This document shows positions 37,431-52,381 of a stretch of DNA of 64,000 bases, piece after piece. The DNA comes from Arcobacter sp. FWKO B (GTDB taxonomy: Bacteria; Campylobacterota; Campylobacteria; Campylobacterales; Arcobacteraceae): NCBI RefSeq assembly GCF_014844135.1, contig NZ_CP041403.1:1922001-1986000 (forward strand), in the 5' to 3' direction. Every line of letters starts with the position of its first letter. Positions within the stretch are counted from its first letter, which is position 1. A program made the translations under genes and the position numbers. The notes beneath the pieces were generated by a model that was not told the origin of the DNA, searched no databases, and saw nothing but the letters and a program-made list of their open reading frames with translations.

Positions 37431-38626
37431 TGAAAAGTTATATTCAACTATTTAAAAATTTTCCAATTATAAAAAAACTTTCAACAGTTCAGTTGATTGC
37501 ATATTTTGGTACTTGGTTTTCCAATGTAGCTATATATACACTTCTTATCAAACTAGGTGCTAGTCCATTTATGATATCTTTGGTTGTTGCAATGCATTTT
37601 ATACCAACTATTATACAAGCACCTTTTAGTGGAGTGATAGTAGATAAACTAAATCCAAAAAAACTTATGGCAACTTTGTTAATTGTAGAGATGTGTATGA
37701 CGCTTTTATTTTTGACAGTTACATCATTAGAACATATTTGGTATCTAGTCTTTTTTATATTTATTAGGATGAGTGCATCTAGTGTATTTTTTGCTGCACT
37801 TATGACACTTTTACCAAAACTAATAAGTGGCAAAAATCTCCAAAAAGCAAATGAAGTACATTCAATTATTTGGTCATTAACATTTACTGCTGGTATGGCT
37901 GTTGGTGGTGTTATAGTTCATTTTGTTGGTATATATACAGCTTTTGTTATAGATGCTATGTTGTTTTTGATAGCTTTTTTCATTTTCATAAAAATTGAGT
38001 TTGAAGTTGAAATCAAAAAAGAAAAAGAAAAACTATATAAAATGTTTAAAGATGGACTAGTTTATATCAAAAACAATAAAGACATATTACACCTTATGTT
38101 GCTTCACAGTATAGTTGGTGTAACCGTTTTTGATACATTGGTTACCTTATTGGCAGATTATTACTACAAATATATCATATCAATACCACTTGCTATAGGG
38201 CTTACCAATGCATCTAGAGCACTTGCTTTGATGATAGGACCACTATTTTTGAGTAATTGGATTAACCATCAGCGACTTTTGTACCTTTTGATATTTCAAG
38301 GTATTTGTATAATATTTTGGGGCATGATACAAAAAGATTTTTATGTAGGTTTATTTGGGATGTTTTTAATAGGACTTAGTACAACAACTATTTGGTCTTA
38401 TACCTATGCACTTTTGCAAGAGAGTATTGACAAAAAATATTTAGGACGAATTATTGCTTATAATGATATGATGTTTATGATAGTAACAGTTATTACAACA
38501 TTTTTTATAGGGATATCTGTTTCGTATATTGGTTTAGATATTATTAGTTATATTTTAGGAAGTATGTTTTTATTAAGTGCTATTTATTATAAGGGGATTG
38601 TGTGGAAGATATTAATCAAAAAGTAA
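37430..38626 (+). CDS. Major facilitator superfamily transporter
   Basis: The 398-residue protein has about twelve hydrophobic segments, and the MFS loop motif appears as 'GVIVDKLNPKKLM' between segments 2 and 3. The layout (MFS_3 type, like EntS or macrolide exporters) suggests efflux, but the substrate cannot be told. It is translationally coupled to the ybgC gene (TAATG overlap) and overlaps the next small gene by 25 bases. Confidence 0.85.
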   Translation: MKSYIQLFKNFPIIKKLSTVQLIAYFGTWFSNVAIYTLLIKLGASPFMISLVVAMHFIPTIIQAPFSGVIVDKLNPKKLMATLLIVEMCMTLLFLTVTSLEHIWYLVFFIFIRMSASSVFFAALMTLLPKLISGKNLQKANEVHSIIWSLTFTAGMAVGGVIVHFVGIYTAFVIDAMLFLIAFFIFIKIEFEVEIKKEKEKLYKMFKDGLVYIKNNKDILHLMLLHSIVGVTVFDTLVTLLADYYYKYIISIPLAIGLTNASRALALMIGPLFLSNWINHQRLLYLLIFQGICIIFWGMIQKDFYVGLFGMFLIGLSTTTIWSYTYALLQESIDKKYLGRIIAYNDMMFMIVTVITTFFIGISVSYIGLDIISYILGSMFLLSAIYYKGIVWKILIKK

Positions 38627-38829
38627 TGTTACTTGCAATTTTGAAAAAAGAAGAAGATGAGTCTATAAATGATGTATTATTAAAACTTGAAAACTCAAGA
38701 GCTTTTAGTCTAAAAGATGGTAAAAAAATTGTTAAAGAATTAAAAGCTCAAAATCTAATCAAAGATGGTGCTTTGAGTATAGAAGGGATATTAAAAGCTA
38801 AAGAAGCTGAAAACTTTTTCAAGGTTTAA
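38602..38829 (+). CDS. Small conserved-looking protein, unknown function
   Basis: This 75-residue charged protein starts at a GTG at 38602 with AAGGGG five bases upstream, inside the 3' end of the transporter gene. The sequence looks like a small winged-helix or helical domain ('LLKLENSRAFSLKDGKKIV', 'LIKDGALSIEGI'). I do not recognise it. Start site and operon position support translation. Confidence 0.65.
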   Translation: MEDINQKVMLLAILKKEEDESINDVLLKLENSRAFSLKDGKKIVKELKAQNLIKDGALSIEGILKAKEAENFFKV

Positions 38830-38903
38830 TACTCTTTTAATATAATCTTAAAAAATAATTAGATAATATATCTGTGCACTAAGATTATTAGGGGAGTCTT
38901 ATT

Positions 38904-41354
38904 ATTTTTAAATATATTTTTTTAATCACTTGCTTTTTTCTAAGTATTGTATTTGGTAATAGTGATAGAGTATCATTACAACTACAGTGGCTTCATCAGT
39001 TTCAATTTGCTGGTTTTTATATGGCAAAAGAAAAAGGGTTTTATGATGAAGTTGGACTTGATGTAGATATAAAAGAGATGCACCCAGATACTGATTTCAT
39101 AGCTGATGTATTAGATTTAAAATCAACTTATGGCACAGGAAGATCATCTCTTGTAATTGATAGGTTTAATGGTAAGCAAGTGGTTTTACTATCTGCAATA
39201 TTTCAAGAATCACCATCAGTATTACTATCAACAAATTTAGATATCAAACACCCAAAAGATTTGAAAAATAAAAAACTAATGGTAACAAATGATGAGATAG
39301 GCTCTACTTCTATTTTGTCTATGCTTGCAAGTCAAAATGTTGGGCTTGATGATGTGACTATTGTACCGCATACATTTGTACTAGATGATTTAGTGGACAA
39401 TAAAACTGACGCAATGGCTTGTTATCTATCAAATGAGCCGTATACACTAAGTTCTAATGATATACCTTTTAATGTTTTAAATCCAAAGAATTATGGATTT
39501 GATTTTTATGGTGATTTACTTTTTACATCTGAATATGAAGTAAAAAATAATCCTGAGCGTGCTAGGAAGTTTACTTTAGCAAGTTTAAAAGGGTGGGAAT
39601 ATGCATTTGATAATATTGAAGAAACAGCAAAATTTATATATGACAAATATAATACTCAAAACAAATCGTTAGAAGCACTTATTTTTGAGGGAGAAACTCT
39701 TAAAAATCTTGCATATGCAGGAGTAGATAGGGTAGGGATAATAGATATAAAAAAAATTGAAGCAATTGCAAAAATATATGCAATTACTGGCTTAATGAAT
39801 ATGGATATTGATTTACAAAGTTTTATTGACCCACTAAAGGCAACATCACAAACAATAAAAATCGGTATTTTATCACACATATCAAAAGAAAAAATTAGTA
39901 CAAAATTTAATCCACTTATAGGCTATTTATCACAAAATATAGCTGGATATGATTTTGAGCTTGTACATATTGGTTTTGATATGATTGAGGAAGCATTAAA
40001 ATCATCATCTCTTGATTTTCTTATTATCAATCCTTCTATCTATACCAAATTTGAATCAGTTTATGGATTAAGTAAAATAGCTACTTTGCAAAATAAAATA
40101 GATTCATATGAAGTGTCAGAATTAGGAAGTGTTATATTTTCAACCAATAAATCAATACAAAGTCTTAAAGATATAAAAAATAAGAAAATAGTATCAGTTA
40201 ATCAAAAATCTTTTGGTGGATATTTAATAGCTAAATACGAACTTTTTTTAAGAGGTATTAATATAGAAAAAGAAAATATGATTTTTTTAGATACTCATGA
40301 AAGCGTTATTGAGAGTATTTTAAAAGGTGAAGCTGATGTTGGTATTATAAGAACTGGGATTTTAGAAGAATACTCAAAAACACATAAAAAGGTGTTTGAT
40401 AATATTAAAATTATAAATAAAACAACTTATAAAAATTTCCCATATATGGTAAGTACAGGACTCTATCCAGAATGGTCTTTTGTAAAACTAAATCATACTC
40501 CAAAAGGGCTTGCTAAAAAATTATTATCAAATCTTTTGGCATATAATAGTGATAGTAAAATTTCTTGGATATCTCCTGTGGATGATTCAAAAATACATGA
40601 GATACATAAGACTTTAAAAATTAAGCCTTATGATTTGGATTCTTTTAGTATAGTTGATGTGTGGCAAAAATATCAGTATGGTTTTATGGTACTTTTTATA
40701 AGTATATTTGTAGTTTTATATTTGGTTTTAAAGTTATATATTGCAAATAAAAAGTTACAAGTTCAAAATAAAGAGATAGAACATTTTAATATTGAACTTG
40801 ATAGAAAAGTCAAACAAAGAACCCAAGAACTATCTCATGCTAATGAAAAGTTACAAACACTTGTAAGTAAAGACTACCTCACTGGAGTAAGCAGTAGAAT
40901 GTTTTTTTATGAGCAATCACAAAAAGAGTTTGAATTTGCAAGAAGAAATAAGATGCCACTTTCTGTTATCCTTTTTGATATAGATAAGTTTAAGGTTGTT
41001 AATGATACTTATGGGCATGATGTTGGTGATATTATATTAAAAAAATTTACTGCTAAAATCCAAGAAAATTTAAGACAAAGTGATTTGTTTGGAAGATTAG
41101 GTGGTGAAGAATTTTGTATATGTGTTAAAAATACTGATATAAATGGTACAGTTACTTTAGCAAATAAATTAAGAATTATCATAGAAAGAAGTAGTTGTGA
41201 TGTAGAAATTCATACTATAAATATCACTACAAGTATTGGTGTAGCTCAGGCTAATGAAAGTGATACAAATATTGATGATGTTATAAAAAGAGCTGATATA
41301 GCTTTATATCAAGCTAAAAATAAAGGGAGAAATCAAGTAGTCTTAGCTACTTGA
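38904..41354 (+). CDS. Periplasmic-binding-protein/GGDEF sensor (NMT1 and PhnD-like domains)
   Basis: The frame is open back to a stop at 38889 and encodes a clear signal peptide ('FKYIFLITCFFLSIVFG') that is lost if the first ATG (39021) is used. No ATG, GTG or TTG exists in that stretch. AGGGGAG (38890-38896) stands seven bases before ATT at 38904, so an ATT start is the best reading (816 residues). The mature protein has an NMT1/ThiY-like binding domain ('QWLHQFQFAGFYMAKEKGFY'), a second PhnD-like binding domain (~325-580), one membrane segment (~595-615), a coiled coil and a GGDEF domain with intact GGEEF. It is likely a periplasmic small-molecule sensor that makes c-di-GMP. Its 3' end overlaps the convergent RND gene by 12 bases. 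Confidence 0.85.
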   Translation: MFKYIFLITCFFLSIVFGNSDRVSLQLQWLHQFQFAGFYMAKEKGFYDEVGLDVDIKEMHPDTDFIADVLDLKSTYGTGRSSLVIDRFNGKQVVLLSAIFQESPSVLLSTNLDIKHPKDLKNKKLMVTNDEIGSTSILSMLASQNVGLDDVTIVPHTFVLDDLVDNKTDAMACYLSNEPYTLSSNDIPFNVLNPKNYGFDFYGDLLFTSEYEVKNNPERARKFTLASLKGWEYAFDNIEETAKFIYDKYNTQNKSLEALIFEGETLKNLAYAGVDRVGIIDIKKIEAIAKIYAITGLMNMDIDLQSFIDPLKATSQTIKIGILSHISKEKISTKFNPLIGYLSQNIAGYDFELVHIGFDMIEEALKSSSLDFLIINPSIYTKFESVYGLSKIATLQNKIDSYEVSELGSVIFSTNKSIQSLKDIKNKKIVSVNQKSFGGYLIAKYELFLRGINIEKENMIFLDTHESVIESILKGEADVGIIRTGILEEYSKTHKKVFDNIKIINKTTYKNFPYMVSTGLYPEWSFVKLNHTPKGLAKKLLSNLLAYNSDSKISWISPVDDSKIHEIHKTLKIKPYDLDSFSIVDVWQKYQYGFMVLFISIFVVLYLVLKLYIANKKLQVQNKEIEHFNIELDRKVKQRTQELSHANEKLQTLVSKDYLTGVSSRMFFYEQSQKEFEFARRNKMPLSVILFDIDKFKVVNDTYGHDVGDIILKKFTAKIQENLRQSDLFGRLGGEEFCICVKNTDINGTVTLANKLRIIIERSSCDVEIHTINITTSIGVAQANESDTNIDDVIKRADIALYQAKNKGRNQVVLAT

Positions 41355-51117: not shown

Positions 51118-51193
51118 TGGCAACCCCAGAAAGATTCGAACTTCCGTTACTTGGATGAAAACCAAGTGTCCTTGTCCACTAGACGATGGGGTC
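51118..51193 (-). tRNA. tRNA-Glu (anticodon TTC), divergent copy
   Basis: The cloverleaf has a 7-bp acceptor stem with a G-U first pair, anticodon loop TTTTCAT and an encoded CCA end. Its sequence differs clearly from the two other tRNA-Glu genes in the array at 51773 and 52128. Confidence 0.88.
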
Positions 51194-51580
51194 ATTTGAG
51201 GAAGTATTTTATCATAATAAAGGTAAAGAATTAGGTAAAAGATAAAAAGTCAAAGGTAAAATTGCTCAAAATTTGAGCTTAATATTAGAATCGGAGTATT
51301 GAAGCTTAATATTTTATACAAGATATATAAGGGTATTGTTAATTTAGTAAAAATATATTAGAATGCAAAATACATTTCCTAAGTTCAAATCACCTAAGAA
51401 AATCACTTGGATATAAAACTCCATCTGAGGTTTTTTATGCAAAAGTTTTAACAGCTTAATGTGGTGAAAATATGCATTTATCTCTTGAATGGGCGTCTTG
51501 AATGGGGGAACCACTGTCGCACTTGAGTGTTGAATGAGGATTTTGAATGGGATGGGGATTTTTTTGTGATGGAATAAAAG
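51194..51580. other. Gap in the tRNA array with IS remnant
   Basis: No intact gene is seen. A short palindrome GCTCAA/TTGAGC lies at 51264-51278. An IS30-like transposase C-terminus is at 51397-51459. The following 100 bases (to about 51555) contain repeated TTGAATG(G/A) words and are richer in G than the surroundings, consistent with an insertion-sequence end. Confidence 0.5.
51397..51459 (+). pseudogene. Remnant of an IS30-family transposase (C-terminus)
   Basis: Twenty codons read 'RKSLGYKTPSEVFYAKVLTA' followed by TAA. This matches the conserved C-terminus of IS30-family transposases ('RPRK-LGYKTP-E-F'). Nothing recognisable of the remaining transposase is found upstream, so only the 3' end survives. 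A decayed terminal region follows to about 51535. Confidence 0.65.
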
Positions 51581-51657
51581 TGGCGCGGTCGACGAGACTC
51601 GAACTCGCGACCTCCTGCGTGACAGGCAGGCATTCTAACCAACTGAACTACGACCGC
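51581..51657 (-). tRNA. tRNA-Asp (GTC), copy 1
   Basis: Standard cloverleaf with acceptor GCGGTCG/CGACCGC, anticodon loop CTGTCAC and encoded CCA. Identical to the gene at 52039. Confidence 0.95.
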
Positions 51658-51736
51658 ACACTATTATTTAACTAATAACTAAAATCTAATATCTAAAAGG
51701 TTTAAAACAATGAGTCTATTTTCGACACATTCTGAC

Positions 51737-51769
51737 TTTTTAGATTTTACCTTTTACTTTTTAGATAAA
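51737..51769. repeat. 33-bp repeat flanking tRNA-Glu, copy 2
   Basis: Second copy of the repeat at 51084, directly past the 3' end of the tRNA-Glu at 51773. It lies in a 115-bp spacer between tRNA-Asp and tRNA-Glu; the other array unit has only 12 bp there. Confidence 0.7.
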
Positions 51770-51772
51770 AAA

Positions 51773-51847
51773 TGGTGACCCCAAGGAGATTCGAACTCCT
51801 GTAACCAGGATGAAAACCTGGGATCCTAACCGCTAGACGATGGGGCC
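51773..51847 (-). tRNA. tRNA-Glu (TTC), copy 2
   Basis: 75-nt cloverleaf starting GGCCCCATCG with anticodon loop TTTTCAT and encoded CCA. Identical to the gene at 52128. Confidence 0.95.
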
Positions 51848-51856
51848 ACACAAAAA

Positions 51857-51932
51857 TGGTGGTCGATGCAAGACTCGAACTTGCGACATCTACCTTGTAA
51901 GGGTAGCGCTCTACCAACTGAGCTAATCGACC
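51857..51932 (-). tRNA. tRNA-Val (TAC), copy 1
   Basis: Cloverleaf with acceptor GGTCGAT/ATCGACC, anticodon loop CTTACAA and encoded CCA. Identical to 52213. Confidence 0.95.
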
Positions 51933-51950
51933 AATAAAAATGGTAAAAAA

Positions 51951-52026
51951 TGGTGACCTGTGATGGATTCGAACCATCGACCCCCTCATTAAAAGTGAGA
52001 TGCTCTACCAGCTGAGCTAACAAGTC
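51951..52026 (-). tRNA. tRNA-Lys (TTT), copy 1
   Basis: Cloverleaf with acceptor GACTTGT/ACAGGTC, anticodon loop CTTTTAA and encoded CCA. Identical to 52306. Confidence 0.95.
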
Positions 52027-52038
52027 AAAAAAATATAG

Positions 52039-52115
52039 TGGCGCGGTCGACGAGACTCGAACTCGCGACCTCCTGCGTGACAGGCAGGCATTCTAACCAA
52101 CTGAACTACGACCGC
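52039..52115 (-). tRNA. tRNA-Asp (GTC), copy 2
   Basis: Same sequence as the gene at 51581; first gene of the second Asp-Glu-Val-Lys unit in window order. Confidence 0.95.
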
Positions 52116-52127
52116 ACACTAAAAAAA

Positions 52128-52202
52128 TGGTGACCCCAAGGAGATTCGAACTCCTGTAACCAGGATGAAAACCTGGGATCCTAACCGCTAGACGATGGGG
52201 CC
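52128..52202 (-). tRNA. tRNA-Glu (TTC), copy 3
   Basis: Same sequence as the gene at 51773; anticodon loop TTTTCAT, CCA encoded. Confidence 0.95.
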
Positions 52203-52212
52203 ACACAAAAAA

Positions 52213-52288
52213 TGGTGGTCGATGCAAGACTCGAACTTGCGACATCTACCTTGTAAGGGTAGCGCTCTACCAACTGAGCTAATCGACC
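52213..52288 (-). tRNA. tRNA-Val (TAC), copy 2
   Basis: Same sequence as the gene at 51857; anticodon loop CTTACAA, CCA encoded. Confidence 0.95.
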
Positions 52289-52305
52289 GATAAAAAAGTA
52301 AAAAA

Positions 52306-52381
52306 TGGTGACCTGTGATGGATTCGAACCATCGACCCCCTCATTAAAAGTGAGATGCTCTACCAGCTGAGCTAACAAGTC
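52306..52381 (-). tRNA. tRNA-Lys (TTT), copy 2
   Basis: Same sequence as the gene at 51951. It is the first tRNA transcribed in the leftward array. Confidence 0.95.

Follow-up and report, generated by a model that had tools for sequence, protein, structure and literature searches.

To our knowledge, bacterial start codons beyond ATG, GTG and TTG (NTG in the following) are regarded as a handful of special cases. The infC gene of Escherichia coli begins with AUU behind a Shine-Dalgarno (SD) sequence, and its product, the initiation factor IF3, feeds back on its own start. For Staphylococcus aureus, one study describes an AUA start of infC, likewise behind an SD sequence, and the conserved starts AUU of cvfC1 and AUA of ccpN, whose yield in poor medium was close to 10% of that of AUG and, for ccpN, rose to as much as 30% in rich medium (PMC13009471). 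In Listeria monocytogenes, laboratory-selected mutants in which the ATG of rsbW was replaced by ATA or ATT set a lower dose of this regulator, and the strength of the start codons followed the order ATG > ATA > ATT (PMC13068326). N-terminomics of E. coli reportedly assigned near-cognate ATT starts to ribE (PMC13245402).

Here, we describe a gene for a putative sensor cyclase, located in a 64,000-nucleotide stretch of the genome of Arcobacter sp. FWKO B (the window), whose translation very probably starts at a weak AUU (position 38904, less likely 38901), as one case of a use of AUA, AUU and AUC (AUH) starts that appears to extend through the family Arcobacteraceae. With cvfC1 of S. aureus and ccpN of S. 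aureus and Bacillus subtilis it shares a conserved non-NTG start on a regulatory or proposed regulatory gene. In contrast to these genes, for which the study shows a yield lowered to between roughly one tenth and one third of that of AUG, together with extended SD motifs and ribosome-profiling proof (PMC13009471), the SD sequences of the sensor gene vary, T and A are exchanged between species in the start codon, and the start is predicted from the sequence. The sensor start resembles the rsbW mutations in that ATA or ATT would set a lower regulator dose; unlike those mutations, it was kept between species instead of being selected in the laboratory (PMC13068326).

The likeness to infC is confined to a rare AUU or AUA start behind an SD sequence. 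The original prediction had gone further and proposed an infC-like self-regulation, which does not fit the sensor. Its domains (NMT1, Phosphonate-bd and GGDEF) point to a sensor cyclase and neither to IF3 nor to a control of start codon choice, and AUH starts are found in several unrelated genes. Moreover, the infC gene of the window's genome (G000:C1:1244003) has TTG as its first NTG, and of the 30 infC genes read across the order (L178-L207), 29 show TTG as the first NTG at their conserved N-terminus.

Start region and predicted product of the sensor gene

Read from the in-frame stop codon that limits the position of the start upstream (38889-38891, + strand), the sensor frame begins TAG GGG AGT CTT ATT ATT TTT AAA TAT ATT, with the two adjacent ATT codons at 38901-38903 and 38904-38906. 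Between this stop and an ATG at 39021-39023, 43 codons further on, the frame contains no ATG, GTG or TTG, and the signal peptide as well as the first mature residues are encoded 5' of the ATG, in agreement with the original prediction. The sequence AGGGGAG (38890-38896, + strand), a putative SD sequence, is separated by seven bases from the second ATT, as had been noted before, and by four bases from the first ATT, which had been overlooked. Its duplex with the anti-SD has an energy of -6.7 kcal/mol, which is equalled or bettered by 24% of 360 sampled genes, whereas the AAGG sites of the two sister orthologues rank as average to weak, with 61% and 77% in the same comparison. The earlier description of the SD as strong is thus fair for the window gene but not for its orthologues. 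NTG-free runs of at least 43 codons occurred in only three of the 362 genes of the first control sample; the NTG-free start of the sensor gene exceeds chance. A promoter scan found no site on the + strand, and a plasmid search found no matching record covering 80% of the query.

From the second ATT, the complete coding sequence comprises 816 codons and a stop (38904-41354, + strand). Hydropathy and orthologue alignment predict a signal peptide of about 20 residues (38904-38963); 15-residue Kyte-Doolittle windows above 1.8 begin at residues 1-6, as expected for a hydrophobic signal sequence, which is followed, still before 39021, by the conserved VSLQLQWLHQFQFAGFY. An NMT1/THI5-like binding domain (residues 32-237, 38997-39614), a phosphonate-type periplasmic binding domain (residues 320-551, 39861-40556), one hydrophobic membrane segment (about residues 590-615, 40671-40748) and a GGDEF diguanylate cyclase domain with intact GGEEF (residues 656-811, 40869-41336) come next, all on the + strand. 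Signal sequence, binding domains, membrane segment and intact GGDEF motif are thus those of a periplasmic-binding diguanylate cyclase sensor, and the product would be a sensor cyclase with predicted ligand binding and c-di-GMP synthesis. Translation from AUU would provide the signal peptide, so that both binding domains would be periplasmic and the GGDEF domain cytoplasmic. Alignments with the solved relatives of the NMT1 domain begin at residue 19 (4nmy) and residue 22 (3ix1); a start at the first in-frame ATG, which encodes residue 40, would therefore remove part of the fold together with the export signal.

The same order of signal peptide, NMT1 domain, second binding domain, membrane segment and cytoplasmic output is known from NMT1/THI5-type sensors with either GGDEF or histidine kinase output. 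These differ from the window gene in having an NTG in reach: among 102 paralogue starts (a first set of 48, less five that belonged to window-gene orthologues, and a second set of 59, from which L267, a duplicate of L007, was left out), only that of L017 lacks an NTG. A non-NTG start is not general in the binding-protein sensor family.

Conservation of the start within the genus

A full-length orthologue (E 1e-120) is present in three of 104 genomes of the host's family, all belonging to the window's genus, and a fourth genome of this genus carries only a C-terminal fragment. The sister proteins are 61% (L031/L002) and 52% (L032/L003) identical to the window sensor. Their frames read TAA TTC ATA TTT AAG GTA TAT ACT ATA AAA AAG and TAA GGT TTT ACA ATA TTT AGA, with AAGG placed eight and seven bases before ATA, respectively, which is a normal spacing, like that of AGGGGAG to the second ATT. 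Over its start region including the whole signal peptide L031 is free of NTG, and in L032 a TTG occurs only within the signal peptide. ATT or ATA directly behind an SD sequence is therefore kept at the same place in all three readable orthologues of the genus, a small number, with AUU in one species and AUA in two; two of the three sequences come from metagenome-assembled genomes. The original proposal, an ATT start for a binding-protein/GGDEF sensor with a signal peptide, is well supported.

The gene order comprises a YbgC-like thioesterase gene, an MFS gene, an ORF of 75 codons with a GTG start (38602-38829, + strand in the window), the sensor gene and a convergent RND transporter gene. The window and L032 match on both sides, including the small ORF, for which no family match was found; L031 matches on the downstream side, and its contig ends just upstream of the sensor gene. 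In a midpoint-rooted tree the three sensor proteins of the genus group with full support (100/100) on a stem of 0.52 changes per site. The simplest reading is thus a single loss of ATG on this stem, with no return to it along branches of 0.1 to 0.7; the weak start would then have become fixed before the species of the genus diverged and been kept as AUU or AUA.

Putative AUA, AUU and AUC starts in other genes

Long NTG-free starts were screened for in 864 kb with 767 genes of the window's genome and in 800 kb with 759 genes of genome G069. As detection needs long NTG-free runs, the resulting rates are lower bounds; the ftsK gene of the window's genome, for example, runs off its stretch and was missed. 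Ordinary NTG starts and antisense frames among the candidates were set aside by eye. In G069 the screen revealed a prepilin-like gene (ATT), uvrB (ATC), a tatD-family gene (ATA) and ftsK (ATA). The other two genes with long NTG-free runs in the first control sample were dropped: the NTG-poor gene L158:14768 of the window's genome, for which homologues from the same genus have their start at the position of its ATG (residue 43 or 44), and L161:17927, whose 53 NTG-free codons have a negative coding score upstream and which is without an NCBIfam match. As a separate observation in this genome, the reading frame of one oxaloacetate decarboxylase beta-subunit gene (L167:7693, - strand; 2,026,551-2,027,693) is broken close to the start; a second copy (169,316-170,458) is open (451), as are most relatives, with about 430-470 codons.

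L017, the one paralogue without NTG, is a histidine kinase from another genus. In the start column of its 21 readable orthologues, L017 included, we found ATA seven times, ATT three times, TTG six times and ATG five times, mostly behind AAGG and, in all but two of the 21, before AAA AA(A/G); one match (L292) was excluded because its N-terminus is missing. Three of the ten AUH cases (L278, L282 and L283) have an NTG elsewhere near the start.

The best match of the prepilin-like gene was read in the 30 closest of 89 genomes with a match, which is not a random sample. In the 21 species of genus g10 plus G020 (L314-L334) the start is invariably AUH (ATA 9, ATT 6, ATC 6) and never ATG, and it lies one or two bases past the stop of the upstream gene; four of these genes (L324, L327, L328 and L331) also have an in-frame NTG upstream. 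In the remaining nine genes an ATG is found one or two codons farther upstream, and in most of them it overlaps the stop of the upstream gene. In G069 the ORF (L306:7828, - strand) consists of 148 codons and is entirely without ATG, GTG and TTG.

For uvrB (L349:5564 in G069; L384-L413; L414-L433), 50 of 96 matches were read, namely the 30 closest and 20 chosen to cover other genera and hence not drawn at random. Their start column contains ATC in 23 genomes, ATA in four, TTG in 12, ATG in eight and GTG in two, with one start displaced. AUH, mostly AUC, accounts for 27 of the 50 and occurs in several genera; uvrB of the window's genome has ATG. The conserved UvrB start (AKF or similar) directly follows the column, which in each of the 27 AUH cases has AAGG in front of it, so that the position of the start is hardly in doubt. 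In a tree of 30 uvrB sequences the rows with AUH, TTG and ATG cluster with three changes, as expected of inherited states.

Putative AUH starts of ftsK were seen in two genera. In G069 (L353:12758) and in the window's genome (L366 near 1851, - strand) no start other than ATA, or ATC one codon earlier, is likely behind the upstream stop; in the window's genome ATC ATA are the sole near-cognate codons between this stop and a distant ATG. The gene of the TatD-family nuclease in G069 (L351:17472) has an ATA or ATT start, with no NTG for 71 codons.

These data suggest that the set of start codons in Arcobacteraceae is wider than gene finders assume. The AUU of the sensor gene would belong to a family-wide use of AUA, AUU and AUC which also comprises uvrB, ftsK and the tatD-family, prepilin-like and histidine kinase genes. 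We regard it as probable, with some reserve, that AUH codons serve at least six gene families as ordinary weak starts that are stable within lineages, that initiation is possibly relaxed at the third base, and that gene finders place such starts wrongly. Standard annotation would then truncate or miss AUH-start proteins, as exemplified by the 148-codon prepilin-like ORF. Among the open-access papers listed in literature searches, none was seen to report AUH starts in Arcobacteraceae.

Initiation, protein dose and rival explanations

At the sensor start, AGGGGAG would anchor the 30S subunit, and the normal initiator tRNA would presumably read AUU with a mismatch at the third base and insert fMet. 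We infer the initiation at AUU, its low strength and its dependence on IF3. A weak AUU start would limit the amount of the sensor, and both the low yield and a benefit from it are assumed here. Low amounts are plausible where the product is a sensor cyclase, a repair protein or a pilin-like protein. If the AUH starts are real, the start codon would control protein dose at the level of a lineage. The genes concerned, with roles in regulation, repair and cell division or coding for pilin-like proteins, would then be natural material for testing how IF3 and initiator tRNA judge the third base.

The strongest rival explanation accepts the use of AUU but ascribes it to near-neutral drift in an AT-rich genome, the low yield being without advantage. 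Third codon positions are rich in AT, and such drift could favour ATA or ATT over ATG; furthermore, just three orthologues of the sensor carry the non-NTG start, and the codon likewise varies between species at the other start columns. However, where the AUH columns change, the alternative is mainly TTG and less often ATG (12 vs 8 in uvrB, 6 vs 5 in the histidine kinases), so that the start tends to stay weak, and the third base of the prepilin-like codons is A, T or C in all 21 species; G, which a single step would produce, never occurs. Both observations are more in line with selection for weakness than with drift. We consider drift possible, yet the less probable of the two.

Little changes if translation begins at AUU 38901, as the mechanism would be the same with one extra residue. 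Both ATT codons stand in frame after the SD sequence, but the spacing of four bases to the first is short and the ATA codons of the sisters align with 38904, a weak argument because the alignment input was cut at these codons. The upstream ATT is thus an improbable start, and 38904 is preferred.

Entry into the sensor frame by programmed frameshifting from an upstream ORF appears very unlikely. In L032 two short ORFs, with ATG codons some 41 and 25 bases upstream of the ATA, overlap the start, but no such ORFs were found before the window gene, where the other two frames, scanned over 300 bases, have no NTG reaching the sensor start and only a CTG. Among the 21 species with an AUH prepilin-like gene, the upstream gene's stop is in frame 1 in 16 and in frame 2 in five; the direction of a shift would not be conserved, which favours a restart near the stop over frameshifting.

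A sequencing error or a decaying gene that has lost its start is just as hard to maintain. According to the original prediction, orthologues with ATG at this place would point to an error, and an ATG is indeed found within a few codons of it in each of the 20 orthologues read outside the family but within the order (a more distant copy in Desulfuromonadaceae has TTG at the start). In contrast, three separate assemblies lack an NTG at the sensor start and have two different codons there; as both readable sisters have ATA, the codon change is a feature of the genus rather than a read error. Decay is contradicted by the frame, which is open over 815-819 codons with intact GGEEF, although pairs of orthologues differ at 49-57% of those fourfold sites at which the encoded residue is the same. 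At such a synonymous distance the sensor gene is not decaying, and selection on the protein appears to continue.

Finally, a protein beginning at ATG 39021 without a signal peptide, behind an untranslated upstream frame, has in its favour that this is the first NTG in frame, and can be dismissed with similar confidence as it would cut into the NMT1 domain, leave the binding domains in the cytoplasm, ignore a 5' segment conserved across genera and depend on a poor SD sequence (-2.7; 90% of the sampled genes are at least as good).

With regard to the tRNA that would read AUU, no initiator tRNA was seen in the sampled stretches, and the two CAT tRNAs present there (L370 and L310) begin with G and resemble the elongator or Ile2 type. 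The window contains nine tRNA genes at 51118-52381 (- strand), among which a Glu-Val-Lys-Asp block is nearly duplicated.
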